In this document: one piece after another, positions 3,218 through 17,725 of the stretch | Layout: each line of letters begins with the position of its first letter | Numbering within the stretch: position 1 is the stretch's first letter | Assembly (NCBI GenBank): GCA_948687865.1 | Contig: CAPQQE010000022.1 | Location: forward strand, 1 to 17,772 | From: an uncultured Bacilli bacterium | GTDB lineage: Bacteria > Bacillota_I > Bacilli_A > RF39 > UBA660 | Direction: 5' to 3' | Length of the DNA stretch: 17,772 nt | Made by a program: the position numbers and the translations under genes | Notes under the pieces: model-generated | Databases searched by the model: none | Seen by the model: only the letters and a program-made list of their open reading frames with translations | Told to the model about the DNA's origin: nothing

Positions 3218-3934
3218 TTAAAATTCCATATCATCTTCTTCAACTTCTTCTATTTCAACAACTTCAATACTTCTATCTTTCAAATCTTGTTTTATTTCTT
3301 CTATTTGTTCTTCACTAACAGATTTGAAACCTGCATTTTCAAAGTCATCTCCTACAACAAAACAATTTCCTGCAATATAATCATATCCAAAGTCAAGATT
3401 TGGTTTTTGATTGAGAATCTTTCCTTCTTCATTACAAACTAATAATAAATCTTCTTTATAAGGTACTACTTCAATTAAACCTCCAACTAGCTTTTGCTTA
3501 GCTTCTAATGTATCATCTATTTCCATTACTATTGGATCTTTTCCTACTTGTTTGTATATAACTTTTAACTTTTTTTCTGTTTCTTCTTCCATATCATACA
3601 TTTCTATTATTTCTTGTAGTGAATATTTATTTAAATCTATACTTTCACTTTTATCTATATAACCGTCATCTAATAATTCAACATATCCACTCATTTCAGC
3701 ATCTCTACCATAACTCTCAAAATCAAAATATCCTTCAATTCCATGTTGTTGTAACACTTCTAACAATCCTGTATCTTCAGCAAATCTATATCCATATTTT
3801 TCTTCTGCTGACATAGTCCAACTATCTATTTGATAAGAATAATAAGGTAGCTCATCTTCTTGAATAATTATATTCATTAATTCTTCAATGCTTAAATCTC
3901 CTTCTGAATTTGCATATCCTTCTATTGCTTCCAT
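3218..3934 (-). CDS. ArdA C-terminal part fused to DUF3846 (separated from its N-terminus by a frameshift)
   Basis: This 238-residue frame has two parts. Residues 1 to about 115 are the C-terminal half of an ArdA anti-restriction protein: LLEVLQQHGIEGYFDFESYGRDAEMSGY matches the ArdA 'l...l..YiDyeayGRDl' region. Residues about 120-225 are a DUF3846 domain, with LKVIYKQVGKDPIVMEID, KLVGGLIEVVPYKEDLLLVC and NEEGKI. The ATG at 3934 has no ribosome binding site. The same frame continues upstream as ELNLLAKVSENIYN, which is the ArdA segment expected after the 3961-4170 fragment, so this ATG is probably not a true start. ArdA mimics DNA and inhibits type I restriction enzymes. As written the protein is split, so activity is doubtful unless frameshifting occurs. 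The C-terminus is acidic (EEDDMEF). Confidence 0.8.
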   Translation of the reverse strand: MEAIEGYANSEGDLSIEELMNIIIQEDELPYYSYQIDSWTMSAEEKYGYRFAEDTGLLEVLQQHGIEGYFDFESYGRDAEMSGYVELLDDGYIDKSESIDLNKYSLQEIIEMYDMEEETEKKLKVIYKQVGKDPIVMEIDDTLEAKQKLVGGLIEVVPYKEDLLLVCNEEGKILNQKPNLDFGYDYIAGNCFVVGDDFENAGFKSVSEEQIEEIKQDLKDRSIEVVEIEEVEEDDMEF

Positions 3935-3960
3935 ATTATAAATATTTTCTGATACTTTTG

Positions 3961-4170
3961 CTAATAAATTAAGCTCTCATATTCATTAACTTTATATGGT
4001 AAATCTGTTTCAAAATCATTTATCATATATTCTTCGTATTCATCATTAAGTCCAACTACTTCTTTTAAGAATTTATCAATTTCTTCTTTTTCTTTTGGTA
4101 ATTCTAGCCATCCTCCTTTTAATTCTCCTTCATTATATTTTCCTAAATTACCAACCCATATATTAAGCAT
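3961..4170 (-). CDS. ardA: ArdA anti-restriction protein, N-terminal part (frameshifted)
   Basis: These 69 residues are the start of ArdA: WVGNLGKYNEGELKGGWLELP and EEYMINDFETDLPYKVNEYES match the family's 'YiaNLgkYNEGeLvGaW' and 'EEYaIhDyE...vdEY.s'. The frame ends in TAG at 3961, while the continuation is found one frame away from GAG at 3976. The break lies at GAGAGC (3973-3978). Compared with the Tn916-type ArdA order EYTSIGELN, about ten bases appear to be missing there. The ribosome binding site GGAAGGAG is good and lies just after the terminator at 4192-4226, so translation should start normally and stop early. The gene follows the TnpV-like gene in the same unit. Confidence 0.8.
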   Translation of the reverse strand: MLNIWVGNLGKYNEGELKGGWLELPKEKEEIDKFLKEVVGLNDEYEEYMINDFETDLPYKVNEYESLIY

Positions 4171-4706: not shown

Positions 4707-5201
4707 TTAAACTTTTTTATCCTTAGATTTCAATTTTGATATCTCCATATTATCTTCCAACTCATTTAATCGTTCAAATTCATTTATCAATGTATTTATT
4801 GGAATATTCAAATCTAATACAGGTTTTAGCATATTTTCTAATTCAGTTATTTTTTTATCCTTTTCTTTTAGTTGATATTCAAGTTGTTTAGTATATTCAT
4901 CAACCCTATCTTCATTTATTAAATAAGTTTTTTCTTTTTCAAACTTTATTCCATTTATTTCACAACTCTTGTCCCAATTAGAATTTTGATATTGCTTACT
5001 TTCCTCATTAAAATTTATTCTATGTTGTAATAATAATGTTCTTAGTAAAAACTCTGTATCGTGATTCACTTCATCAAATGCAGTTTCTGTAGCAATATAT
5101 ACTAAATCTTTATACATATTTCTCAAAACATCTATACTAAGATTTTCTATTGGTTGTTCCATATAATTATTATAATTTTTCTTAAAATCATCCCAAAGCA
5201 T
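4707..5201 (-). CDS. Hypothetical coiled-coil protein, 164 residues
   Basis: I do not recognise this gene. The first 60 residues are helical (DDFKKNYNNYMEQPIENLS, then RNMYKDLVYIATETAFDE). A middle segment at about 70-95 has EINGIKFEKEKTYLINED. Residues about 100-155 form a likely coiled coil (DEYTKQLEYQLKEKDKKIT, ELENMLKPV), ending in a basic tail KSKDKKV. There is no signal peptide or membrane segment. It is the last gene of a three-gene unit and starts 4 nt after the stop of 5206-5961, with a ribosome binding site (GAAGGAG) inside that gene. Structural or regulatory roles are equally possible. Confidence 0.72.
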   Translation of the reverse strand: MLWDDFKKNYNNYMEQPIENLSIDVLRNMYKDLVYIATETAFDEVNHDTEFLLRTLLLQHRINFNEESKQYQNSNWDKSCEINGIKFEKEKTYLINEDRVDEYTKQLEYQLKEKDKKITELENMLKPVLDLNIPINTLINEFERLNELEDNMEISKLKSKDKKV

Positions 5202-5205
5202 ATTA

Positions 5206-5961
5206 TTAGACTCCTTCCTTATTTAATATTTTCTCATAATACTCAAAGATATCATCAATTTTTTTACCACCAAATGATCTTTTATAGTCTTCTTGTTCAT
5301 TTTCCTTCCACCATTCAAATTTTTCTTTAATTTTATTTCTTATCTCTATGGTATCTATATCAGAATTCTTTTCTATTGCAAATAAAACTTTTATAATATC
5401 TCCTCCACAAATAAAAAAATCAAAATTCCTTACTTCATCATTACCATATTTCCCCTTAATTTTTTCTATTTTTTTATCATAGGAAATATATAGATAATCA
5501 TCTTTAAACAAATGATTTTCTTTTAAATATGTATAATATAAATCTTTTACTCCTGATGTTTTTACAAATCCTGTCATATACCATATTGTTCTACTTCTAA
5601 TTTTAATATAATCTTTTGGCAAATCTATTTCTTTTATTTTAGTAATATATTTTCCTTCTGAATATAAAAATTCATTTTCTTGATCTTCTAGCTTCAATGT
5701 TTTTCTCTCTAATCTTCCTCTTGTATACCAATTAGACATTATTTTTTTATTAATTATTTCTTCACAATAATCAAATAAATATTTAAACTGTTTTCCATCG
5801 TTTCTGTCAATCCATTCTATATCTTCTTTTTCTCCTCCTACTCTGCAATAATCATCTCCTCCATCTATATAGCAAGATCCACATTTACACATTTGAAAAT
5901 CATGTCTATATTTACTTTGTAATATATCTCCACATTTTTTACATCTGATTCTTTCTCCCAT
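5206..5961 (-). CDS. Zinc-ribbon protein (DUF7695-like N-terminus)
   Basis: This 251-residue protein begins with a zinc ribbon: Cys7-x2-Cys10 and Cys25-x-Cys27 (CKKCGD...CKCGSC), followed by YIDGGDDYCRVGG. That is the DUF7695 pattern (C..C, 'hdf..C.Cg...vDGG.dY.R..g'), recalled from memory. The remaining 200 residues are mixed alpha/beta, rich in Lys, Asp and Tyr, with no motif I recognise. Zinc ribbons of this type usually stabilise a nucleic-acid- or protein-binding unit; the role here is unknown. The start is ATG with GGAGG upstream, 13 nt after the stop of 5975-6316. It is the middle gene of a three-gene unit under the promoter at 6347-6380. Confidence 0.75.
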   Translation of the reverse strand: MGERIRCKKCGDILQSKYRHDFQMCKCGSCYIDGGDDYCRVGGEKEDIEWIDRNDGKQFKYLFDYCEEIINKKIMSNWYTRGRLERKTLKLEDQENEFLYSEGKYITKIKEIDLPKDYIKIRSRTIWYMTGFVKTSGVKDLYYTYLKENHLFKDDYLYISYDKKIEKIKGKYGNDEVRNFDFFICGGDIIKVLFAIEKNSDIDTIEIRNKIKEKFEWWKENEQEDYKRSFGGKKIDDIFEYYEKILNKEGV

Positions 5962-5974
5962 TTGTCTCCTCCTT

Positions 5975-6316
5975 CTATATTTTTAACAGTTCCATTGATT
6001 CAAAATAAATATAAGCTTCCTTAAATCCTAGTTTAAAAGCCTCTTTTAATTCAATCAAATTAATCTCTTCTTGTAACTTTAGTATTTCTATAATTGCATT
6101 TTCTTCTTCATCATTTAATTTAGTTTTCTCTCCATCTTCTAATAAAGTTACTACATTAGGATATTTATTTTTGATTTCACAAATAGCCTTCTCTATTTCT
6201 TTATATTCATTTCTTAATCTTATTCTACCTACTCTTTGATTTTCAAAATAATCTGCGAAGTAATCAGACCACTCACATGTATATTGATTTAAAAGTTCTT
6301 CGTTCAAATTTCCCAA
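5975..6316 (-). CDS. Small helical protein, first gene of its unit
   Basis: This 113-residue charged helical protein has no recognised enzymatic motif. Its C-terminus ELKEAFKLGFKEAYIYFE resembles the end of the protein at 2856-3149, so the two may belong to one family (I recall DUF6809, low confidence). The start is TTG at 6316 behind GGGAGG, with the promoter at 6347-6380 only 30 nt upstream. It leads the unit with the zinc-ribbon and coiled-coil proteins. Confidence 0.75.
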   Translation of the reverse strand: MGNLNEELLNQYTCEWSDYFADYFENQRVGRIRLRNEYKEIEKAICEIKNKYPNVVTLLEDGEKTKLNDEEENAIIEILKLQEEINLIELKEAFKLGFKEAYIYFESMELLKI

Positions 6317-6346
6317 CTTTTTTCCTCCCTTTCTTTATTTTCGATC

Positions 6347-6380
6347 ATTATATAGTGAGCATATATCAGATTCCAAACCC
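6347..6380 (-). promoter_or_regulatory. Promoter with GGGTTTGGA motif, for the 5975-4707 unit
   Basis: Minus strand: -35 TTGGAA (6371-6376), 18-nt spacer, -10 TATAAT (6347-6352). GGGTTTGG (6373-6380) overlaps the -35, and upstream lies an A/T stretch nearly the same as that at 3204-3220. It is the third member of the set. Confidence 0.7.
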
Positions 6381-6397
6381 TTTTTATAAAAAATTTT

Positions 6398-6434
6398 AAA
6401 AAATAACCTAGTACATAAAATTTGTACTAAGTTA
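6398..6434 (-). terminator. Intrinsic terminator after the 7739-6460 genes
   Basis: On the minus strand, an 11-bp stem TAACTTAGTAC/GTACTAGGTTA (one G-U) with a 9-nt loop is followed by TTTTTT. It closes the long unit that begins at the AAA+ ATPase gene, just before the promoter at 6347-6380. Confidence 0.8.
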
Positions 6435-6459
6435 CCATCTACAGCTTGTAATTTGTGTT

Positions 6460-6570
6460 TTACTTATTCTTTAATATTTCTAAATAATTATCTGCTTATT
6501 CTCTTGTTTTAAAAATAATGATATTTTTATTCATTTTGTATTTTTCTAGCAATTCATATAATTGAACCAT
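6460..6570 (-). pseudogene. Tiny ORF with an in-frame stop, overlapping the end of 6554-7393
   Basis: An ATG at 6570 opens MVQLYELLEKYKMNKN followed by IIIFKTRE, then TAA at 6496-6498, then ADNYLEILKNK and a second TAA at 6460-6462. The 24 codons plus the 11 codons after the stop read like one continuous small protein (compare '..FKTREEADnYLe.Lkn'), so a sense codon such as CAA, GAA or AAA probably mutated to TAA. It overlaps the preceding gene by 17 nt in another frame. There is no strong ribosome binding site, so translation may depend on coupling. Confidence 0.4.
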
Positions 6571-7393
6571 TTTCTTTAAGGGCATTCCATAAATCATCAT
6601 CTTCAAATTCATTATCTGGCTCAAAATGTTTTAATAATATATCTAAATTTTTCCTTACAAAATCACATATTTGGTCAAAATCTTCTTTTGAAAGCTTATT
6701 TTTTCCTATAATTACTCTTGGATTTTCTTCTAATGTAATGCTAAATCTATCTATATATTTATTTTTAGTATTTGAAACACGAATTCTAGGTAAATCATTA
6801 TGAACACGGACATTACTACTTTTAGATCTATTCTTTTCTGGATATATGTTAGTTTTTAATCCTGTTCTACGTTCAGTAAGTACTGTAGAATACCATCCCC
6901 AATTATCACAATCATCTAGAGTTGCTTCCCTGAAAGTTTTTATATTTAATGGCGTTTTTCCAACTTTAATTTCATTCCAATAATTTTCTGTTGGTATTTC
7001 TAGATCTCCTTTTACAATTCTACTTAATAAATCATATTCTGAATCTTCTTCAATTACTCCATTATATTTTTCTATGTCTTTTTCAAGGTATTCAAATGTA
7101 AACAATTCTTTATTTCCCCACTGATTGTTATTCATCTCATAGAATGAAATTAAAGCATATTTATTTTCAAAATATTTTTCTCCATTAAATTTTCTTGGTA
7201 GCCATCTCACAACATATATTCTATCTGTATTGTCGTCTATGTAACCTTCTCCTTCTTCTAAATTATGCTTTAACTTTACAATATCTCCAATTTTAAATTT
7301 TTCACTTGCCTCTTCCTCTAAATCTTCTGGATATAATTCAACACTATGTTTTGTATCTGTCAAACTATTTTTATATCGATATTCATACATCAT
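6554..7393 (-). CDS. Hypothetical protein, probably the C-terminal part of a frameshifted 395-residue gene
   Basis: I cannot name this gene. The 279-residue frame contains KFKIGDIVKLKHNLEEGEGYI (about 33-53), typical of a small SH3-like 'GDiVkl' barrel. A C-terminal region follows at about 205-265 (YIDRFSITLEENPRVIIG, then LSKEDFDQICDFVRKNLDILL). The frame has no stop for 41 codons upstream of the ATG at 7393 and reads IDDLEYAENFDIDYDAYHKE, joining the frame of 7512-7739 if one G is removed at 7520-7522. The ATG does have AAGGAG 11 nt upstream, so internal initiation is possible, but these bases also encode EGD of the longer frame. Confidence 0.7.
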   Translation of the reverse strand: MMYEYRYKNSLTDTKHSVELYPEDLEEEASEKFKIGDIVKLKHNLEEGEGYIDDNTDRIYVVRWLPRKFNGEKYFENKYALISFYEMNNNQWGNKELFTFEYLEKDIEKYNGVIEEDSEYDLLSRIVKGDLEIPTENYWNEIKVGKTPLNIKTFREATLDDCDNWGWYSTVLTERRTGLKTNIYPEKNRSKSSNVRVHNDLPRIRVSNTKNKYIDRFSITLEENPRVIIGKNKLSKEDFDQICDFVRKNLDILLKHFEPDNEFEDDDLWNALKENGSII

Positions 7394-7511: not shown

Positions 7512-7739
7512 TCATCTATCCCGTGTTATTGTAAATAAATAATCTAGTTTTTCTTTTTCTATCATTTCATCAAATGCCATGTTTTCTTCTTGTTCTACTT
7601 GTTTTATTCTTTCTTTTAAGTTATTTATGCCTTGCTCTTTTGCTTTTGCAAAACTACTATATATATTACAATAAGAGTTTGCATCAAGAAGTTTAGAACC
7701 ATAGTCATACATATCAACTTGTAACAAATATAACTTCAT
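7512..7739 (-). CDS. N-terminal part of the same frameshifted gene
   Basis: These 75 residues begin MKLYLLQVDMYDYGSKLLDA and look like the first strand-helix unit of a small alpha/beta domain of the kind found at the start of ICE accessory proteins (YodL-like in appearance, low confidence). They end LDYLFTITRDR and TGA. Removing one base from the GGG at 7520-7522 gives FTITRIDDLEYAENF and continues without stop through 6554. I therefore read 6554-7739 as one ancestral gene of about 395 codons with a 1-nt insertion or a sequencing error. It lies in the AAA+ operon. Confidence 0.65.
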   Translation of the reverse strand: MKLYLLQVDMYDYGSKLLDANSYCNIYSSFAKAKEQGINNLKERIKQVEQEENMAFDEMIEKEKLDYLFTITRDR

Positions 7740-7782: not shown

Positions 7783-8217
7783 TTAATTCAATATTATAAT
7801 TCTTATATCTTTCTTTTCTTTTAAATCTCTACTTTTGGCAACAATCTCTTGCATTGAGTTTTCTAATGTATCATCTATATAAATTTCTTTTTTTGAAAGT
7901 GTTTCTATTATTTTTTTAAGTTTCTCCCATTCTTCACTATTTATTTGCCCACTTTCTATTTTTCTATAATCAATATTTGAATAATTAGATAAGATTTTAT
8001 TTATAATTTGTTTTTTATTTACCCTTGAACTAAAAATTGCAATTGGATTATTTATTTTTTGTAACACATTAGAAATGGCATTCAAAGCTACATCTTTTGT
8101 ATAATCCTTTAAATTTAATATAACTAATTCTTCTCTACCTGCCTTTTTTGTACTTTCGTCTATGTTTGAGATTTCTACTAAAAATTTATTTATATCACTA
8201 ATTTCTTTTATTTCCAT
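7783..8217 (-). CDS. Degenerate, truncated DnaB-like helicase domain
   Basis: This 144-residue protein follows the first half of the DnaB helicase RecA fold. ELVILNLKDYTKDVALNAI matches 'dLiilaArPsmGKTafAlni', NNPIAIFSSRVNKKQI matches 'kPVaiFSLEMskeQl', and IESGQINSEEW matches 'irtGqlddedW'. KKEIYIDDTLENSMQEIVAK matches 'l....iyIdD.sglt..ei..kaR', and it ends IRIIILN exactly where Walker B (DYLQ) should follow. The P-loop GKT is replaced by TKD and the catalytic Glu of FSLEM by Arg, so it cannot be an active helicase. The codons after the stop do not encode the missing half. It may be a remnant, or a protein that binds replication proteins. It lies fourth from the end of the AAA+ unit, 49 nt after 8267-9148. 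Confidence 0.68.
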   Translation of the reverse strand: MEIKEISDINKFLVEISNIDESTKKAGREELVILNLKDYTKDVALNAISNVLQKINNPIAIFSSRVNKKQIINKILSNYSNIDYRKIESGQINSEEWEKLKKIIETLSKKEIYIDDTLENSMQEIVAKSRDLKEKKDIRIIILN

Positions 8218-8266
8218 TGTAATTTTTCTCTTTCTCTATATTACTTTGATACTAACTTTTACACTA

Positions 8267-9148
8267 CTACTTTCTACTTGTTTCAATATTAATAACTTCC
8301 CATTTTCTATTAAATATCACTTTACAATAAGCATATTCATCAGAAAAATAATGTTTTTCTATTATTATTGGTATATCTCCAAATTGATTTTGAGATTTTA
8401 TTGGGGGTTCTTTTTTTAATGCTTCTATTGTTTCTTCAATTGTCATATAACCATTTCTGTTTAAAATATTTAACTCATCTTCTGGAAAATATATGCTATA
8501 AAAATAGATTGAATTAGGGCTAGCAAAAGAGTCAAAATCAAGCATTTCATTATTATCTTTCATAAACTCTTCTACTGCTTTCTTTTCTCTTGCGAAATCC
8601 ACTTTATTTGATTGTTCTTTTTCTCTTTTTAGAAGATATTTATCAGAAGCAAGTTCAAATTCTGAATCTATAATTGCTATTTCAAAGGGCATATCCATCA
8701 TCAAATAAATCGTATCTTCTGTTATTCTTTTACAAATATACACATCTGTATTTGATGTGCCTATATCTGTATATTTGTAAAAAACATTATATTTATCATA
8801 TTGCTTTAAATCTTGGTCCAATAAAAATAGGTCTTGAATGCATATATGTTGTTTATTATCTATTAATTTTGTAATCGTTTCTCTTTCTTTTATTGGTATT
8901 CTGCCTTCTGGATCATAGTCATATTCTAATAACTTATTATCACAATATTCTTTATTTAATTCTAATCTAAATTTTAATACACTCTTTTCATTAAACCTAC
9001 CACCTGTCAAAATGGTATCTATTTCAAATTTCCTGATTGCTTTTCTTTCTATGATTGCTGTGTCTAAGTTTGAAAACCATAAAGCTAAATGTTCAAACTT
9101 CTTACTTTTCAATATATCTTGATTTATTTTTTGCATTACATAACTCAT
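8267..9148 (-). CDS. Hypothetical 293-residue protein of the AAA+ operon
   Basis: I do not recognise this gene. It encodes a soluble mixed alpha/beta protein with no membrane segment. The N-terminal 90 residues carry FEIDTILTGGRFNEKSVLKF. A middle part at about 120-175 (VYICKRITEDTIYLMMD, then FEIAIIDSEFELA) looks like antiparallel strands. The C-terminal 60 residues contain IPIIIEKHYFSDEYAYCKVIFN. It lies 25 nt downstream of the AAA+ ATPase gene, so it is probably a functional partner, perhaps a substrate or adaptor. ATG start with GAAGGG upstream. Confidence 0.72.
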   Translation of the reverse strand: MSYVMQKINQDILKSKKFEHLALWFSNLDTAIIERKAIRKFEIDTILTGGRFNEKSVLKFRLELNKEYCDNKLLEYDYDPEGRIPIKERETITKLIDNKQHICIQDLFLLDQDLKQYDKYNVFYKYTDIGTSNTDVYICKRITEDTIYLMMDMPFEIAIIDSEFELASDKYLLKREKEQSNKVDFAREKKAVEEFMKDNNEMLDFDSFASPNSIYFYSIYFPEDELNILNRNGYMTIEETIEALKKEPPIKSQNQFGDIPIIIEKHYFSDEYAYCKVIFNRKWEVINIETSRK

Positions 9149-9173
9149 TTTCTATACATCCCTTCTTTATTTT

Positions 9174-10787
9174 TTATCCACCGAATCCTATTCTTTTTTT
9201 ATTCTCTACAGTTTTAATTTTATCTACCACATTTTTTATGTCTTGTGGTATTATTGTATATAAATCATCACTATCTTTTTCTTTGATTCGCACAGCTTGT
9301 TCAAATTTTATCTTTTCTACTAGATTTCTTACTAAACGACCATTTCCAAAATTTTCTTTTTTTAATTTTACTTCGTTTTCAAAATACTGGGTTACAATTT
9401 CTTTACAACCTTTTTCTAATTTAAGAAAATCTTCTTTAAGTTGTTCTAAAAATATCTCATATAATTCTTCTACATTATAATCTGGAAAATCTATAAAAAA
9501 TTGTATTCTGCTTTTGAAACCTGAATTCGCACTAATCAGTCTTTCCATTTCTTCTGGATAACCTGCTAATATAACACACAAATCTTCTCTATGATTTTCC
9601 ATTTCTTTTATTAATGTTGCTATACATTCATAGCCATAGTCATTCCTTCGTCCATCTGAGCCTTGTATTAGTGAATATGCTTCATCTATAAACAATACAC
9701 CACCTATTGCTTGCTCAATAACCTTTTTTGTTTTTGCTGCTGTATGTCCTACATATTCACCAATTAAGTCTTCTCGACCAACTTCTACAAAAATTTTTTT
9801 AGTGCTTAATATTTCATTTTCTGCAAATATATCGCCGATTATTCTTGCTACAGTAGATTTTCCTGTACCAGGATTTCCACTCATACACATGTGTAGCATA
9901 GTTCTTCCTTGCCCGCCTCGTTCCAAATCTACTTCAACGTAGCTTAATATTTTCTTTATTTGTTCTTTTACATCATTTAATCCAATTAAAGAATTTAATT
10001 GGCGTAATCCATGTTCGGATTTTTTTTCTGTTTTAGGATTATCCCATTTAAACAATATATCGTCTAAATCAAAACAATCTGTATTTATTTCTTTTAATTC
10101 TCGTTTATTGGCTTTAATACAAGCTCTAATAAGTGTTTTATCCAATTCTATCATTGAATTTTTTGCAATAGATTTTATTATCCAATCTTCTAAATTTATT
10201 TTTAAACCATTTTGTTTTGCTACATTGTTTATATATTGTATCTTTTCTTCTTGCGTAGGCTCTATTATATTTAGTTCCCAATAAAAGTTTCTTTGTAACA
10301 TTTCTAGTGTGTTATCTTTATCTCTTTTTGACATTAATTTTGAATCTTTTATTATAACAACAAATATGCAATTTGGATTCTTTTTAATGATTGATTCTAA
10401 TTTTCTATCAATCTTATTTTCATCATCTATAATATAAAGTTTATTTTTCTCAAATCCAGTATTTTTTAAAGTATATAAATCAGTAATAATTGTTATTTTA
10501 TCATCTTTTATTATGTCTTCTTTTATCAATATTTTACTAATTATCTCAACTTCTTTTTCATAATCTTTAGAATCGTTATCACAGAACAGTATAATATTAT
10601 CATTTCCTATATTTATCTTATTTTCTTTTTTTAGTCTAATATATTCTACATACTCTTTTAGTTTATTTCTAAAAAAAGTTACACCATAACACTTATCTAA
10701 ACTTTTTAAAATATCTTCTGTAGTTTCTTCTTTCTTTATTATACTATGTTTTTCTAAATTTTCCATTTTAATTCCAATTCCCTTCAC
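9174..10787 (-). CDS. AAA+ ATPase of the SpoVK/CbbX type with a degenerate N-terminal P-loop-like domain
   Basis: The C-terminal half (from about residue 265, LNSLIGLNDVKEQIKKIL) is a complete AAA+ module: Walker A GNPGTGKST at about 304-312, Walker B GVLFIDEAYSL at about 362-372, sensor 1 in VILAGYPEEMERL, arginine-finger region SRIQF, sensor 2 GNGRLVRNLVEKI. This is the CbxX/CfqX/SpoVK subfamily, hexameric remodellers of protein complexes. The N-terminal half (about 60-230) keeps the outline of another P-loop domain (IILFCDND, KLYIIDDEN, then a lid-like helical part) but has no GKT/S. The GTG at 10787 opens the frame; ATG at 10766 (MENLEKH) is an equally likely start. It leads a unit with 8267-9148 and 7783-8217, under the promoter at 10816-10844. 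Confidence 0.9.
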   Translation of the reverse strand: MKGIGIKMENLEKHSIIKKEETTEDILKSLDKCYGVTFFRNKLKEYVEYIRLKKENKINIGNDNIILFCDNDSKDYEKEVEIISKILIKEDIIKDDKITIITDLYTLKNTGFEKNKLYIIDDENKIDRKLESIIKKNPNCIFVVIIKDSKLMSKRDKDNTLEMLQRNFYWELNIIEPTQEEKIQYINNVAKQNGLKINLEDWIIKSIAKNSMIELDKTLIRACIKANKRELKEINTDCFDLDDILFKWDNPKTEKKSEHGLRQLNSLIGLNDVKEQIKKILSYVEVDLERGGQGRTMLHMCMSGNPGTGKSTVARIIGDIFAENEILSTKKIFVEVGREDLIGEYVGHTAAKTKKVIEQAIGGVLFIDEAYSLIQGSDGRRNDYGYECIATLIKEMENHREDLCVILAGYPEEMERLISANSGFKSRIQFFIDFPDYNVEELYEIFLEQLKEDFLKLEKGCKEIVTQYFENEVKLKKENFGNGRLVRNLVEKIKFEQAVRIKEKDSDDLYTIIPQDIKNVVDKIKTVENKKRIGFGG

Positions 10788-10793
10788 AATTTT

Positions 10794-10832
10794 AAAAAAT
10801 CCTATCTACATTATTAGTATATAGGATTTTTT
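10794..10832 (-). terminator. Near-symmetrical (bidirectional) terminator between the WYL and AAA+ genes
   Basis: AAAAAATCCTAT is matched by ATAGGATTTTTT across a 15-nt interior with extra pairs, so both strands have a stem followed by TTTTTT. On the minus strand it ends the DUF2779-WYL operon 55 nt after its last stop. The -10 box of the next promoter lies inside it. Confidence 0.75.
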
Positions 10833-10844
10833 ATTCATTGTAAA
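10816..10844 (-). promoter_or_regulatory. Promoter of the AAA+ operon, nested in the terminator
   Basis: Minus strand: -35 TTTACA (10839-10844), 17-nt spacer, -10 TATACT (10816-10821), five of six consensus bases each. The transcript would start in or just after the hairpin loop at about 10809, so it carries only one arm of the terminator and is not stopped by it. Confidence 0.6.
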
Positions 10845-10849
10845 ATGTA

Positions 10850-10866
10850 TTGGTCATATTATGTAT
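10850..10866 (-). promoter_or_regulatory. Putative operator, copy 2 of a shared 17-bp motif
   Basis: The minus strand reads ATACATAATATGACCAA, 5 nt upstream of the -35 box. The copy at 15044-15060, in front of the DUF2779 operon, matches at 15 of 17 positions and has the same 5-nt spacing. The likely ligand is the WYL regulator encoded next to it (inference). Confidence 0.55.
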
Positions 10867-10887
10867 TTATGTTACATTTAATTCTAT

Positions 10888-11865
10888 TTAATATCTTTTT
10901 AGTATTTCTTTTAAATTATTTTTTAATTCTTCTCGAATTGATGTTGGTTCTAAAACTTCCACATAATTCAAATATTGCATAATCCACATTTTTAGTCCTT
11001 TAGGACAAACATATAATTTCACTTTAAAATGATTATCATCTATTTTTTGAATTTCTATATTGGTTCCGAATTTTTCTATTACAGCATCTAATATTAACAT
11101 ATCACATTTTAACTCTATTACTGCTCTCTCTCCACCAAACATATATACAGAACTTTGTACAAAATCTTTAATTGATTGATTAGTTTTAACATTTGGTATT
11201 TCAGTTGATTTAATATTTTTAATTCTATCTAATCTAAAATATGATAATTCATTAAATTTTTCGTTATATGCTATTAAGTAATAAAATTCATTTTCGCAAA
11301 GAATAGCATATGGACTTACTCTTTTTGTTTTTTCTAGTTTTAATTTTTTATTGATATCATATTTATAATATTCAAATTCAACTTTTGTTTTAGATTTTAT
11401 GCTATTTGATAATACTTCTATGTTATTTAATACATCTTTGTTTATTGTCTTTATATTTTTGCTGTATACTTCTATGTTTTCTGTTTCGTTAATTGTTTCT
11501 TGTTCATATATACTTAATAAACCTTTTAATTTTTCTGCTATTTCAACTGAAAATGCCTCTTCCATAAATTTTGAATAATGTAGTAAATCTATCATCATTT
11601 TTATTTCACTAAATTCAAAATCTTTTGTTCTTAAATAGTAACCTTGTCTATTTTCTTTAAATGTTTCTATGTCTATATCTAATTTCTCTATTAGCACTCT
11701 TATATTTCTTCTTATCGTTCTATCTTCTATTTCTTCATTAAATTCTTCTTTTACATATTTTATAATATCTTTTACACTTAAAATATGATTCACATCTGAA
11801 TACTTCTTTAGAACATCATAAATATAAATTATATTTCCTAAATTTGTATGTAATTTATCCTTCAT
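10888..11865 (-). CDS. WYL-domain transcriptional regulator
   Basis: This 325-residue protein has the standard WYL regulator layout. The N-terminal winged helix is at about residues 8-70 (YDVLKKYSDVNHILSVKDI, then EIEDRTIRRNIRVLIEKLD). The WYL domain lies at about 150-225 (KVEFEYYKY, VSPYAILCENEFYYLIAYN, LSYFRLDRIKNI), and a C-terminal WCX-like region follows (VIEKFGTNIEI, MWIMQYLNYVEVLEP). WYL proteins sense ligands such as nucleic acid and often repress phage-defence operons (BrxR and CapW are named examples). It is the third gene after DUF2779 and the PUA-like gene and precedes the AAA+ operon, so it is well placed to control both. The start is ATG with GAGG 8 nt upstream; no clear private promoter lies in the 74-nt gap before it. 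Confidence 0.92.
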   Translation of the reverse strand: MKDKLHTNLGNIIYIYDVLKKYSDVNHILSVKDIIKYVKEEFNEEIEDRTIRRNIRVLIEKLDIDIETFKENRQGYYLRTKDFEFSEIKMMIDLLHYSKFMEEAFSVEIAEKLKGLLSIYEQETINETENIEVYSKNIKTINKDVLNNIEVLSNSIKSKTKVEFEYYKYDINKKLKLEKTKRVSPYAILCENEFYYLIAYNEKFNELSYFRLDRIKNIKSTEIPNVKTNQSIKDFVQSSVYMFGGERAVIELKCDMLILDAVIEKFGTNIEIQKIDDNHFKVKLYVCPKGLKMWIMQYLNYVEVLEPTSIREELKNNLKEILKRY

Positions 11866-11939
11866 TTATTTTTCCTCTTTTATTGTAATTACTATATACC
11901 CTAATGTTTTCTATTTCATTTTTTGTATAAGTCCATAAG

Positions 11940-13493
11940 TTAAACTCCTATTATTTCTTCTACTATAGGTCTTACTTCATCTATAATATTTGTTATTTCA
12001 TTCTCTGCACTTTCAATAATAAAACATTTAAATTCGTTATTATAATAAAAATGGGCTTCTTCTCCATTAACTTTGTAAAAAAACTCAATACTATCTATTC
12101 TATTTTTTGCAATTTCAATTTCATTAGCACAAGAGTATTCTTTTAATGAGGTATGTAAAATTTTTCCGTCATCATCAAAAAAATGCACTTTAAATATCTT
12201 TTTTCCATTTAAATGTTCATTGTATTTATGCATTGACCAACCATTATATTTACTATTACATCGAGAAACTTTAATGTTTATCTCTTCATTGCTATTGTTC
12301 TTAAATTCAGTTCTATAATATTCCTTATTATTTAGAAAAGGGAAATAATTAATATTATCTATTAAACAATCATATAATTCATTTTGTTGTATTTTTTCTA
12401 CTTTAGCATCTTCTTCAACTTCATTACCATATTCATTAATACCTGAAAAAAGATATATTTTCTTAAATAAGTCTTTTTGCTTTAAGTATTCTGAATACTC
12501 AATTTTACATATATTTTTTACTTGACAAGTTATATTTTTCTCATTAACATTATTTTTATCTTTTAAATAAAATTCATACATAGGTTCACTAATTTTACAA
12601 TGTGATGGCAATAAAACTAAATTTTTATTATTTTCCTTATCTAAAATGTATAAATATACTAAATCTTCTAATTCATCTGGATTCAATGAACATCCAAAAT
12701 TGTTCTCATTTAATACTATTGGTGGTATTTTTATATTTGGTTTTTTTCTATTTTTTTTCTTTTCTTGATATAACTTTAATGCTAATAATTTTATTTTATC
12801 ATTTGTACTAGATATAGTATTTTGATTTCTTTGAGAAAATCTACCTATTATATCTGATAATATTTCATTTCTTTTCAATGGAACCCATTCATCAACCTCA
12901 CATCTCCAACTAAATCCATTAGATTCGCATTCTTTCAATATTTCTTTTTCTTCTTTCTCTTTTTTAAAAAATTTTTTTCCATCTCTTACTTGTCCTATTA
13001 AATATATGCCATTTTTCAATCTAGTTATGATTATATCACCTTCTTCAACTTTAAAAAAACTGTTAATTGCTCTTTTTAATCCATTGTTTTCACTATCAGC
13101 TATTTCATTTTCTTTATTTTCGTCTTTAGGGGTAATTTTGTTATATACTTTTTGATAAATATCTTGGATATATTTATCTTTAAATTCTACTTTATCAAAT
13201 ATATTATACTTTTTTATTTTTTCAAAAACTTTTTTTCTTAACTCCTCTGACAATTCTCCATCGCTAATTTCTACATCATCAAAAATATCTTCGAGCCTTT
13301 TCATTTTATTATTTTTTTCATCATAATCATTGCTCCATCCAATTCCAAAAATTTTGTTCTTAAAGCAAAAATTTTGATAATCATTAACTAAGTTCTTATT
13401 ATTTTTATCTTTAGAAGTAAATGGTAACATTTGGACTAACCAACAATTTTTTACTTGCCTTGAATCAATAACTTCTATATTTTTTATATTCAT
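11940..13493 (-). CDS. PUA/EVE-like domain protein with a possible Mrr-like nuclease half
   Basis: This 517-residue protein is not confidently named. The first 200 residues hold a pattern seen in PUA/EVE-like base-reader domains: CWLVQMLPF, FGIGWSND at about 46-53, then AINSFFKVEEGDIIITRL and GIYLIGQVRDG at about 140-168, with WRCEVDEWVPL after it. The middle has NPDELEDLVYLYIL (about 268), MYEFYLKD and ITCQVKN (about 320-327). A helix-strand-(E)-QxK order like this is found in Mrr-type PD-(D/E)xK restriction endonucleases, with Q in the QxK form. The last 150 residues look beta-rich. The start overlaps the end of DUF2779: its GGAGGAAAATAA gives the last codons there and the ribosome binding site here. 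It may recognise and cut modified or foreign DNA (inference). Confidence 0.7.
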   Translation of the reverse strand: MNIKNIEVIDSRQVKNCWLVQMLPFTSKDKNNKNLVNDYQNFCFKNKIFGIGWSNDYDEKNNKMKRLEDIFDDVEISDGELSEELRKKVFEKIKKYNIFDKVEFKDKYIQDIYQKVYNKITPKDENKENEIADSENNGLKRAINSFFKVEEGDIIITRLKNGIYLIGQVRDGKKFFKKEKEEKEILKECESNGFSWRCEVDEWVPLKRNEILSDIIGRFSQRNQNTISSTNDKIKLLALKLYQEKKKNRKKPNIKIPPIVLNENNFGCSLNPDELEDLVYLYILDKENNKNLVLLPSHCKISEPMYEFYLKDKNNVNEKNITCQVKNICKIEYSEYLKQKDLFKKIYLFSGINEYGNEVEEDAKVEKIQQNELYDCLIDNINYFPFLNNKEYYRTEFKNNSNEEINIKVSRCNSKYNGWSMHKYNEHLNGKKIFKVHFFDDDGKILHTSLKEYSCANEIEIAKNRIDSIEFFYKVNGEEAHFYYNNEFKCFIIESAENEITNIIDEVRPIVEEIIGV

Positions 13494-13494
13494 T

Positions 13495-14997
13495 TTATTT
13501 TCCTCCTATAACTTCGTGTAACTTTCCCCATATTTTAACCATCGCATAAGTATCTAATTTGCAATAAACTAAAAGTCCTTGTCTTATTTTTTCTTGTTCC
13601 TCTTTTGTTTTTTGCTCAAGTGTTGCAAATACACTCATTGCCTCTCCACCATTGTGTACTAATGGTAAATTATGATAATCAAGTTCTGGATCATCTGGAA
13701 ATAATGCTGGCAAAACATATTTAATCGAATATGAACCTTGCATCTCTTTACAATAATACATTCTATCTACAAAAGGAATCATTAAGTCTTTTATATTGTT
13801 ATGTATTATTAATAAATCTTCTCTTAAATCTTCATATAATTCTGCTAGATTTTTTATTACCATTTTTTCAAATTGCATATTATATGCTAATACACAAGCA
13901 TTTTCTGGAATATCCTTTACTAATTGCTCAGCTAGTTTTCTTCTTGGATCAATTCCTGCTTCTGCTAGAAATTCTTTATGTTTGAGTTCTCCCTTTTCAT
14001 TTTCTATATAATGCAAAGAATATTGAAAAGGTATTTGCATATAAGGTCTTATTCCATCATATTTTGGAATTGGTTGTTGGAATGTTTCAAAGTCCAAAAA
14101 GTATAATGGATAGTATAAATTCTTCATAAAAGCTCTAATTTTTTCTTTATCTATTACAGGCTCTTTATTTAATTCTTCAAATTCTACTTGTTGCTTAAAT
14201 TTCCAATCTATATCTTGATTTAATAAATCGTTAAATTTATAAATACCTTTGTTATATAAATTAAATTTTTGGTCTTTCCTCATTCTTCTAATTTTGAACA
14301 CATTGTTCTCTGGTAACTTCCTTGTACAATAATTCCAATACTCACAATTATATGGATTAAAACAATGTTTTCCAATATCTTGTATTGGCTCGTCTTCTTG
14401 TTCCATATATTTATTAATTTCATTGATTTTATCTTTGATTTCTTCTTGTTTAGAAAATACAATTTCTGTTACATCTTCTATATTAAACAACTTGTCTAAT
14501 TCAAGTTCTCCATTTCTTACATATTGATTGTTAATGTACACTATACTTGCTTTTTTCACTTTATATCCTAAATTAAGAAGTATATATACTTGATACGAAA
14601 TGTCATCCAAATAAATATCGTTTATTGAAGTTGAACTTTTTACTTCATATATTTCTATTCCATCTACATCATTTTTTAAAATATCTACACTACAAAAATT
14701 TTCGTCATAATCAAAAGATGCTTCTGTAATAATATTCGGCTTTTTTTCTATATATTGTTTTGTTTGTTCTATCATTTTAGATAAATCACTTTGATATTCA
14801 ATATTGATATATTCCCCGAATAGTTGTCTTGCAAGTTCACCTACTTCTGTTCCATTCTCTAAAACAGCCTCACTTGCTGTCTCTTCAGCACATTCTGGTT
14901 TGTATTTATTTAACCATAGTATTTTATTGCATTGTTTTGCTTTGCAGTATGTAGATTTAGATAAATGCACCTTCTCCATATAATCCCTTTCTTTCAT
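13495..14997 (-). CDS. DUF2779 protein: Cas4/RecB-like Fe-S nuclease fused to a DEDD exonuclease
   Basis: The N-terminal half (to about 230) is Cas4/RecB-like. It has an early Cys pair (CKAKQCNK), the PD-(D/E)xK core FCSVDIL...IYEVKSS, the YQVYILL helix, and closing cysteines CFNPYNCEYWNYC, which together suggest a 4Fe-4S cluster. The C-terminal half (about 290-500) has the DUF2779 signature with an RNase H-like DEDD fold: YFLDFETFQQP, IPFQYSLHY, VLAYNMQFEKMVIKNLA, GSYSIKYVLPALFP and YCKLDTYAMVKIW. It should be a DNA- or RNA-cleaving enzyme; the substrate is unknown. The start may be the ATG at 14979 (MEKVHLS), which has AAAGGG 7 nt upstream; the ATG at 14997 has none. It leads the operon with the PUA-like and WYL genes. 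Confidence 0.9.
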   Translation of the reverse strand: MKERDYMEKVHLSKSTYCKAKQCNKILWLNKYKPECAEETASEAVLENGTEVGELARQLFGEYINIEYQSDLSKMIEQTKQYIEKKPNIITEASFDYDENFCSVDILKNDVDGIEIYEVKSSTSINDIYLDDISYQVYILLNLGYKVKKASIVYINNQYVRNGELELDKLFNIEDVTEIVFSKQEEIKDKINEINKYMEQEDEPIQDIGKHCFNPYNCEYWNYCTRKLPENNVFKIRRMRKDQKFNLYNKGIYKFNDLLNQDIDWKFKQQVEFEELNKEPVIDKEKIRAFMKNLYYPLYFLDFETFQQPIPKYDGIRPYMQIPFQYSLHYIENEKGELKHKEFLAEAGIDPRRKLAEQLVKDIPENACVLAYNMQFEKMVIKNLAELYEDLREDLLIIHNNIKDLMIPFVDRMYYCKEMQGSYSIKYVLPALFPDDPELDYHNLPLVHNGGEAMSVFATLEQKTKEEQEKIRQGLLVYCKLDTYAMVKIWGKLHEVIGGK

Positions 14998-15009
14998 TTA
15001 TTTTCTTTT

Positions 15010-15038
15010 ATTTTATCAAACTATATATATTCCGTCCA
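15010..15038 (-). promoter_or_regulatory. Promoter of the DUF2779 operon
   Basis: Minus strand: -35 TGGACG (15033-15038), 17-nt spacer, -10 TAAAAT (15010-15015). Each box is modest. The match in spacing to the AAA+ promoter (17-nt spacer, motif 5 nt upstream of the -35) raises my confidence. The start of transcription would lie within about 20 nt of the first ATG. Confidence 0.5.
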
Positions 15039-15043
15039 CTATT

Positions 15044-15060
15044 TTGGTCATAAAATGTAT
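15044..15060 (-). promoter_or_regulatory. Putative operator, copy 1 of the shared 17-bp motif
   Basis: The minus strand reads ATACATTTTATGACCAA, differing from the copy at 10850-10866 only at the two central bases. Both copies end 5 nt before a -35 box. The core CAT-N3-ATG is a short dyad. Confidence 0.55.

Positions 15061-17649: not shown

Positions 17650-17725
<76 letters not shown>

Follow-up and report, generated by a model that had tools for sequence, protein, structure and literature searches.

The six genes and their recurrence

The window analysed here is a stretch of 17,772 nt, contig CAPQQE010000022.1 of assembly GCA_948687865.1, from an uncultured bacterium of the RF39 lineage. It carries a run of six neighbouring genes, encoding a DUF2779 protein, a nuclease with an EVE/PUA-like reader (PUA nuclease), a WYL transcription factor, an AAA+ ATPase (AAA), a 293-residue protein (u293) and a truncated DnaB paralogue (Table 1). 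A preliminary description of the window took them for a candidate undescribed defence or DNA-processing module in two operons, raising the question of whether these genes form one unit and, if so, what that unit does. We find that they do belong to a real unit, with DUF2779, WYL and AAA as its recurring core. The unit is probably a WYL-controlled modular defence cassette, carried here on a mobilizable element, a role that we infer from gene content and sequence.

Recurrence was assessed mainly in 385 genomes of one order, many with small contigs, at cut-offs of E ≤ 1e-80 for AAA, 1e-30 for WYL and 1e-10 for DUF2779. AAA was found in 47 genomes, WYL in 57, DUF2779 in 34 (one copy each) and u293 in eight, in one of which (G260) it is broken. 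Of the 34 DUF2779 genes, 30 have a WYL gene no more than 10 kb away, always on the same strand and in 28 cases downstream. Similarly, 35 of 51 AAA genes have a WYL gene within 10 kb, all on the same strand and with WYL upstream in 34, and DUF2779 lies within 10 kb of AAA in 22 of 34 cases. Of the four DUF2779 genes lacking a nearby WYL gene, two are at contig ends (G144 and G155), one is broken (G013) and one adjoins AAA (G005). Since a genome of 1-2 Mb rarely has more than one such WYL gene, we estimate, rather than compute from a null model, that chance would link DUF2779 to WYL in well under one of the 34 cases.

The genes are thus linked elsewhere, as the preliminary description had expected; a fixed set of six is not. 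None of the eight u293 loci, which came from a scan of genome contigs and all belong to metagenome-assembled genomes titled Clostridia or uncultured Clostridium, holds all six genes intact, and the exact set recurred nowhere examined. AAA is directly upstream of u293 in seven of them, and one 168-aa open reading frame (ORF) intervenes in L001. A WYL gene (90-91% identical) precedes AAA in L001, L004 and L008, diverged PUA nucleases (29-33%) lie upstream of WYL or AAA in L004, L005 and L008, and DUF2779 is found in L005 and, split into two ORFs, in L001. Relatives of the truncated DnaB occur in L003, L004 and L008, with a fragment in L001. L004 and L008 therefore hold five of the six genes; DUF2779 is the one they lack, and their PUA nuclease has diverged. 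The PUA nuclease is one cargo among several, and u293 is the speciality of a sub-clade (8 of 385 genomes).

Beyond the order, DUF2779 was found in nine of 398 genomes sampled from the phylum. In one of these, G415, two copies are present; a few kb at most separate each from a cassette-type AAA (292-295 bits) and a distantly related WYL gene (51-54 bits), which for the second copy is on the opposite strand. Seven others, apart from G001, have neither AAA nor WYL nearby, two of them on contigs shorter than 6 kb. In addition, 28 annotated plasmids carry DUF2779, including plasmids of Arcobacter, Helicobacter and Selenomonas, with 41-47% identity among the 15 matches listed. In five of six plasmids inspected an ATPase annotated as AAA, its type not checked, lies within 8 kb, and the neighbours in these six include dGTPase (two), Fic (two), restriction-modification genes with a PD-(D/E)XK nuclease (one) and SIR2 (one). 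The Selenomonas plasmid also has a WYL gene; near DUF2779 of one Helicobacter plasmid (L219) none of AAA, dGTPase, Fic, restriction-modification, SIR2 or WYL was found.

A promoter box shared by the two operons

The regions upstream of the two operons share a 21-nt word, which the preliminary description had taken for a common operator. The box does recur. A position weight matrix trained on AAA promoters only finds a site in 38 of 52 AAA promoters and exceeds the 99% null score in 18 of 37 held-out DUF2779 promoters, counts in which a small number of loci are nearly identical and some of the DUF2779 genes lie outside the order. The same score is exceeded in one of 42 WYL upstream regions, that of L093, a locus whose core begins with WYL. 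When aligned on the box (core rCAWWAYRTGACCA), the promoters have a -35-like element 5 nt past it and TATAAT after a further 17 nt; inspection of the conserved box shows no palindrome. The position of the box, abutting the -35 element, suggests activation, and the box is a putative binding site of the WYL factor in an activator-type position, which would give this regulator a concrete predicted target.

Searching 22 genomes for the exact core box gave 45 matches, in 20 of them, versus eight for a reversed-pattern control. By hand tally 27 of the 45 have a core gene no further than 10 kb away. Boxes also precede cargo genes, namely those of the YEL family (93 nt), the o7512 family (92 nt), an FtsZ-like protein (86 nt) and a DnaB core (232 nt). 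Two boxes outside cassettes precede genes of the c18 family (by 133 and 231 nt), which also occurs as cassette cargo; these genes, at G231:C35:824 (L209) and G003:C25:3282 (L202), are possible distant members of the WYL regulon. Among the remaining 16 boxes, 11 were inspected, of which nine lie within ORFs on either strand and two are intergenic and without known cargo.

A hairpin in the AAA leader

The -10 element of the AAA promoter lies within an inverted repeat whose letters vary among genomes and which is absent from DUF2779 promoters. In a folding test restricted to box-bearing leaders, 27 of 37 AAA leaders had z<-2 (mean -3.5), versus two of 18 DUF2779 leaders (mean -0.35), these two being those of L001 (-2.5) and of the window (-5.5). 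Although the arms vary, they match within each genome, with -16.2 kcal/mol for an arm paired with its own partner versus -8.1 kcal/mol when arms are swapped. Swaps between dissimilar arms equal the own pairing in 11% of cases for AAA leaders and in 44% for DUF2779 leaders. The swap test was used because an alignment of eight AAA leaders failed to bring the two arms of the hairpin into register, and column covariation from it was dropped.

In leaders of the window type the predicted hairpin resembles a terminator, with a run of U at its end; in those of the L101 type it takes in the ribosome-binding site. RNA from the AAA promoter would start near the 3' arm, lack the 5' arm and so escape the hairpin, while a transcript reading through from the WYL operon would form all of it. 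The hairpin thus looks built to block read-through, and its covarying arms suggest selection for keeping AAA off unless its own promoter fires. AAA would in this way gain a safeguard, and a hairpin around the -10 element may be a general device against read-through.

These features bear on the view that the locus is an ordinary defence island, a hotspot of unrelated defence genes that do not work together. The highly varied cargo described below and the 16 of 51 AAA genes without WYL within 10 kb would suit such an island. However, the core genes mostly keep their order and strand, both promoters have the box at the same fixed distance, and AAA leaders bear the hairpin, all of which argues for co-regulation rather than a chance pile-up. 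We regard an ordinary island as very unlikely.

Proteins of the core and the putative restriction enzyme

All six genes lie where the preliminary description had placed them. The DUF2779 protein matches Pfam DUF2779 (2.8e-46) and a Cas4-like family (1.2e-4), as well as PADLOC Cas4 (6.5e-10). Residues C18, C23, C212, C218, C224, E118, K120, D302, E304 and D482 are nearly invariant in 23 sequences, and we take them to be Cas4-like cysteines, nuclease residues and DEDD-type residues. Such an arrangement agrees with the placement of DUF2779 in an exonuclease clade, with an attached DUF83 nuclease domain, in PMC3985635. For neither DUF2779 nor WYL did a search of solved-structure sequences give a usable match. 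In the AAA family, a Walker A pattern is found before residue 200 in none of 44 proteins and after residue 220 in all 44; the first AAA-like region thus has no Walker A and the second domain is intact. The window AAA scores below the curated CbbX/SpoVK cut-offs, with 256.8 bits for TIGR02881 (cut-off 422.95) and 213.9 for TIGR02880 (cut-off 459.25).

The ratios of nonsynonymous to synonymous substitution rates (dN/dS) are 0.15-0.21 for the window WYL (versus L001, L004 and L008), 0.18-0.29 for AAA, 0.33-0.45 for u293 and 0.12 for DUF2779 (one pair). For u293, 52 homologues were found in a large protein database; there is no family for it in Pfam, PADLOC or NCBIfam, a scan of viral contigs gave no relatives, and its AlphaFold2 model was too poor for use. 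A likeness of u293 to the 350-aa YEL cargo family came from a weak profile match (E 0.0057, probability 6.5%) and was not relied on.

The preliminary description had proposed a PUA/EVE-like reader and a possible QxK nuclease core in the second gene of the first operon. In agreement, the protein has a PD-(D/E)XK nuclease fold, with the catalytic residues of the nuclease core present, next to a putative reader fold, and residues 30-384 match PADLOC PDC-S02 (2.9e-25). Foldseek alone gave no significant match, and no relatives were found in the viral contigs scanned or, at 1e-8, in annotated plasmids. The protein is best read as a predicted modification-dependent restriction enzyme. Reader-like and PD-(D/E)XK nuclease folds also occur in the modification-dependent restriction enzymes VcaM4I, McrBC and MspJI; unlike them, the putative enzyme of the window would hold both in a single chain of 517 aa, which has an additional C-terminal part and belongs to a WYL cassette. 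PDC-S02, to which it is related by the sequence match, is a phage-defence candidate whose S presumably stands for single-gene. In contrast to such a listing, the window's gene is one cargo within a larger unit.

Exchangeable cargo between the core genes

Up to 20 kb was fetched around AAA/WYL genes and around DUF2779 genes, and the ORFs of the AAA/WYL set were clustered. L068-L106 were picked by AAA/WYL matches, with DUF2779 as no criterion, and their WYL/AAA content is therefore not independent evidence; L167-L185 were picked by DUF2779 or WYL. The usual order is DUF2779 - [slot 1] - WYL - [slot 2] - AAA, with other orders in L088 and L093 (WYL-AAA-DUF2779 in the latter). At least two kinds of core gene are present in 43 loci, 28 of which have interior cargo, 89 proteins altogether. 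A bare core, with no interior ORF of at least 100 aa, is found in L090, L091, L093, L096, L099, L100 and L183. Cargo was counted as same-strand ORFs of at least 100 aa between core genes, so that the truncated DnaB of the window and the DnaB/PolC of L073, L091, L092 and L102 fall outside the counts.

The cargo was searched against Pfam and PADLOC at 1e-5, and the figures below come from 25 of 34 Pfam families and the first 25 of 141 PADLOC families. Among the families listed are GmrSD (3), PDC-S02 (5), an LlaJI nuclease (2) with an McrB-like AAA_5 protein (2), dGTPase, Fic, ADP-ribosylglycohydrolase (2) and macro domain (2). Paralogues of host proteins comprise DnaB_C (8), DNA_pol3_alpha (5), the DnaJ C-terminal domain (4), the FtsZ GTPase domain (2) and the DnaA ATPase domain (1). 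Of the 28 cargo-bearing cassettes, 11 contain a recognised restriction or defence type, and host-protein paralogues occur in 11. As judged from these gene contents, the cargo between the core genes is exchangeable, and the slots are a place to seek new type IV restriction enzymes. A further family, cluster c6, is a metallo-beta-lactamase fold with an RMMBL domain (RNase J-like, about 394 aa), found in or beside cassettes at seven loci, e.g. L081, L086, L092, L094, L102 and L104.

Copies of host replication and division proteins

The last of the six genes had been described as a catalytically dead DnaB-like protein, and in a motif alignment Walker A and Walker B are both missing, in the window as well as in L003, L004 and L008. 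A decaying pseudogene is disfavoured, because the truncated ORF (144-147 aa) is kept intact in these four loci with dN/dS of 0.43-0.56 between the window and the other three and 0.30-0.45 among those three, a weaker constraint than on u293, AAA, WYL or DUF2779. Other cassettes hold or adjoin DnaB copies in different states: full-length with an intact Walker A in L074 and L078, and reduced to the RecA core with Walker A present in L068, L069, L073, L075, L076, L083 and L102. L091 encodes a fusion of 599 aa (5176-6975), in which a DnaB RecA core that keeps Walker A intact follows a PolC-like part lacking the usual catalytic motif. A DnaB above the family cut-off lies outside the cassette in 17 of 19 genomes (G383 has the cassette copy only and G096 none), and ordinary polymerase III alpha is present in all ten genomes examined. 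On a DnaB tree the cassette copies mostly group together (3 label changes versus 9.8 when shuffled), and recent duplication in each genome was therefore rejected; the tree was made by a quick method, with several long branches, two long ones meeting and four rows left out.

PolC-like proteins keep the PDIDLNF motif in L078, L081 and L092 and have PDIDLNV in L068 and an altered motif in L069, L072, L076 and L091. FtsZ-like cargo ends after the GTPase domain (195-202 aa) in L069 and L072. In L071 (2415-3401), the ATPase domain of DnaA, without the rest of that protein, is fused behind a domain of the o7512/o6554 type; this fusion suggests that host-protein baits may have the o7512 domain as their adaptor. 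The inactive forms and lone domains, the boxes in front of some of these genes and the exchange between cassettes favour decoys or dominant-negative brakes over real replication factors, without separating the two.

Real replication factors would be expected if the cassette were a module by which a mobile element replicates or is maintained, with DUF2779, AAA+ and the DnaB and PolC paralogues serving the element. DnaB and PolC are replication genes, the window element has a relaxase, MobC, ParB and a replication-type HTH_36 protein, and a cassette adjoins relatives of this protein and of ORF 16588 in L069 (see below). However, most cargo-bearing cassettes have neither DnaB nor PolC, several copies are catalytically altered, restriction enzymes are among the cargo, and some cassettes stand amid what appear, from a reading of the ORFs, to be chromosomal housekeeping genes (mur-type in L001, addA-type in L002). 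This explanation seems to us quite improbable.

Brakes are the essence of another explanation, in which the locus brings about WYL-triggered growth arrest, as an inducible abortive-infection or damage-checkpoint locus whose DnaB, PolC, DnaA, FtsZ and DnaJ pieces poison the host replisome and divisome. The lone FtsZ and DnaA domains, the Walker-less DnaB, the altered PolC-like proteins and the boxes before YEL, o7512-family, FtsZ-like and DnaB-core genes would all fit, as would the activation of the WYL factor PafBC by single-stranded DNA described in PMC11804915. Poisons are harder to see in the full-length DnaB with Walker A and the PolC-like proteins with their catalytic motif, 17 of the 28 cargo-bearing cassettes have no host-protein paralogue as interior cargo, and the restriction enzymes in the other slot suit defence better. 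Growth arrest as the function of the cassette is thus unlikely.

There is a modest chance that the cassette is an immune platform with swappable, WYL-induced decoys of host proteins targeted by phages (DnaB, PolC, DnaA, FtsZ and DnaJ). The stripped or dead copies would absorb phage takeover proteins; these, or replication complexes that have stalled, would then be passed to the AAA+ machine and to the nucleases. If true, such a platform would be a bacterial counterpart of the integrated decoys of plants. Nothing on decoys of replisome proteins was found among the papers listed, as judged from titles and abstract openings. The repeated occurrence of inactive or single-domain copies makes the idea of bacterial decoys, or inducible brakes, modelled on phage-attacked proteins a testable one.

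Proposed working of the cassette and known systems

For the WYL-controlled defence cassette, we propose that the WYL factor would bind the box and activate both operons once its WYL domain takes a ligand such as single-stranded DNA. Operon 1 would supply the two-domain DUF2779 nuclease and the EVE-PD-(D/E)XK protein, which would read modified bases and cut DNA. Operon 2 would supply the AAA+ remodeller, u293 as its partner and the DnaB core that lacks Walker A; the hairpin would terminate or mask read-through RNA, so that expression of this operon would depend entirely on induction of its own promoter. Replication complexes are the probable target of the AAA+ machine, with the dead DnaB core as a possible bait for, or inhibitor of, helicase loading. 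The cassette would thereby shield the host, or the mobilizable carrier element, from phages or rival elements.

In line with the preliminary description, no named system with this gene set turned up in literature searches, and the cassette appears to be an unnamed, defence-like one with a clear three-gene core in little-studied uncultured Clostridia. In the collection searched, no paper joined DUF2779 with WYL, and none of the DUF2779 papers was on defence by title. BREX is defined by the pglZ and brxC genes in the locus. Scans of 10 window proteins against PADLOC and 20 against Pfam gave no PglZ, the window AAA has only a sub-threshold BrxC_BrxD match (19.5 bits, cut-off 22.2), and no BREX family was seen in the 89 cargo proteins among the first 25 of 141 PADLOC families. 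The arrangement typical of BrxR is nevertheless present, an HTH-WYL-WCX regulator adjoining the PDC-S02 gene, with restriction-type cargo at other loci. BREX islands under BrxR/WYL control with type IV restriction (pEFER; PMC9122601) share with the cassette a WYL-governed mosaic defence island and frequent type IV partners; the cassette differs in its DUF2779 and SpoVK-like AAA core and in having, as its putative operator, a box beside the -35 element of two promoters instead of a known inverted repeat.

A search for WYL domain, SpoVK and defense led only to the paper on CoCoNuT type IV systems (PMC11090510). Some of these carry SpoVK-family AAA+ proteins, as here; they are built on McrBC and coiled-coil nucleases, and in the text examined WYL appears only in the reference list and Cas4 is not mentioned. 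PafBC and DriD are WYL-domain activators of promoters (PMC11804915), as proposed here for the cassette factor; PafBC differs in being a DNA-damage regulator.

The carrier element and other features of the window

The window has a GC content of about 25%, and every gene of interest is on the minus strand. Ten of its proteins were scanned against PADLOC and 20 against Pfam. It looks like an integrative mobilizable element, with genes for a relaxase (Pfam 2e-36), MobC/NikA, ParB-N, pieces of ArdA, a DUF3846 protein and an HTH_36 replication-type protein; no integrase was identified in the window. Near-identity searches matched only the tRNA-Met region, among the 20 of 148 matches listed for plasmid records and in all 16 matched phage records.

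Table 1. Positions of the cassette genes, their control elements and neighbouring features in the window.
Feature	Position	Strand	Remarks
DUF2779 box ATAGATACATTTTATGACCAA	15044..15064	-	WYL operator (inferred)
DUF2779 promoter -10-like TAAAAT	15010..15015	-	box distance equal to that of AAA; poorer -35
DUF2779 protein	13495..14997	-	first gene of operon 1; Cas4-like PD-(D/E)XK part and DEDD-type exonuclease part
EVE/PUA-like reader with PD-(D/E)XK (E..E..QxK) nuclease	11940..13493	-	variable cargo in slot 1; PDC-S02 family
HTH-WYL-WCX transcription factor	10888..11865	-	last gene of operon 1; Pfam WYL 1e-11, WCX 1.6e-7
AAA box ATAAATACATAATATGACCAA	10850..10870	-	WYL operator (inferred)
AAA promoter -35 TTTACA	10839..10844	-	5 nt past the box
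AAA promoter -10 TATACT	10816..10821	-	17 nt past the -35
Inverted repeat around AAA -10	10793..10833	-	arms 10793-10809 and 10817-10833; z -6.2
AAA+ ATPase, SpoVK/CbbX type	9174..10787	-	first gene of operon 2
293-residue protein (u293), unknown fold	8267..9148	-	neighbour of the AAA gene
Truncated DnaB RecA-core paralogue	7783..8217	-	no Walker A, stops before Walker B; DnaB_C 3.4e-19
o7512	7512..7739	-	matches N-terminal part of the o7512/o6554 family (cluster c7)
o6554	6554..7393	-	matches C-terminal part of the o7512/o6554 family, with an extra C-terminal stretch
tRNA-Met	17650-17725

The o7512/o6554 family is a single protein of 277-294 aa in L003, L068, L070, L078, L089 and L103. In L069 (891-2220), genes related to that of the window's HTH_36 protein (74%) and to ORF 16588 (55%) adjoin another cassette, so that related elements bear cassettes in more than one genome. 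The DUF7695 protein at 5206-5961 of the window has a weak PADLOC match to Cas10 type I-D (8.5e-5), which is probably due to chance. ArdA is split over two ORFs within 3218-4170, the N-terminal piece at 3961-4170 and the C-terminal piece fused to DUF3846 at 3218-3934.

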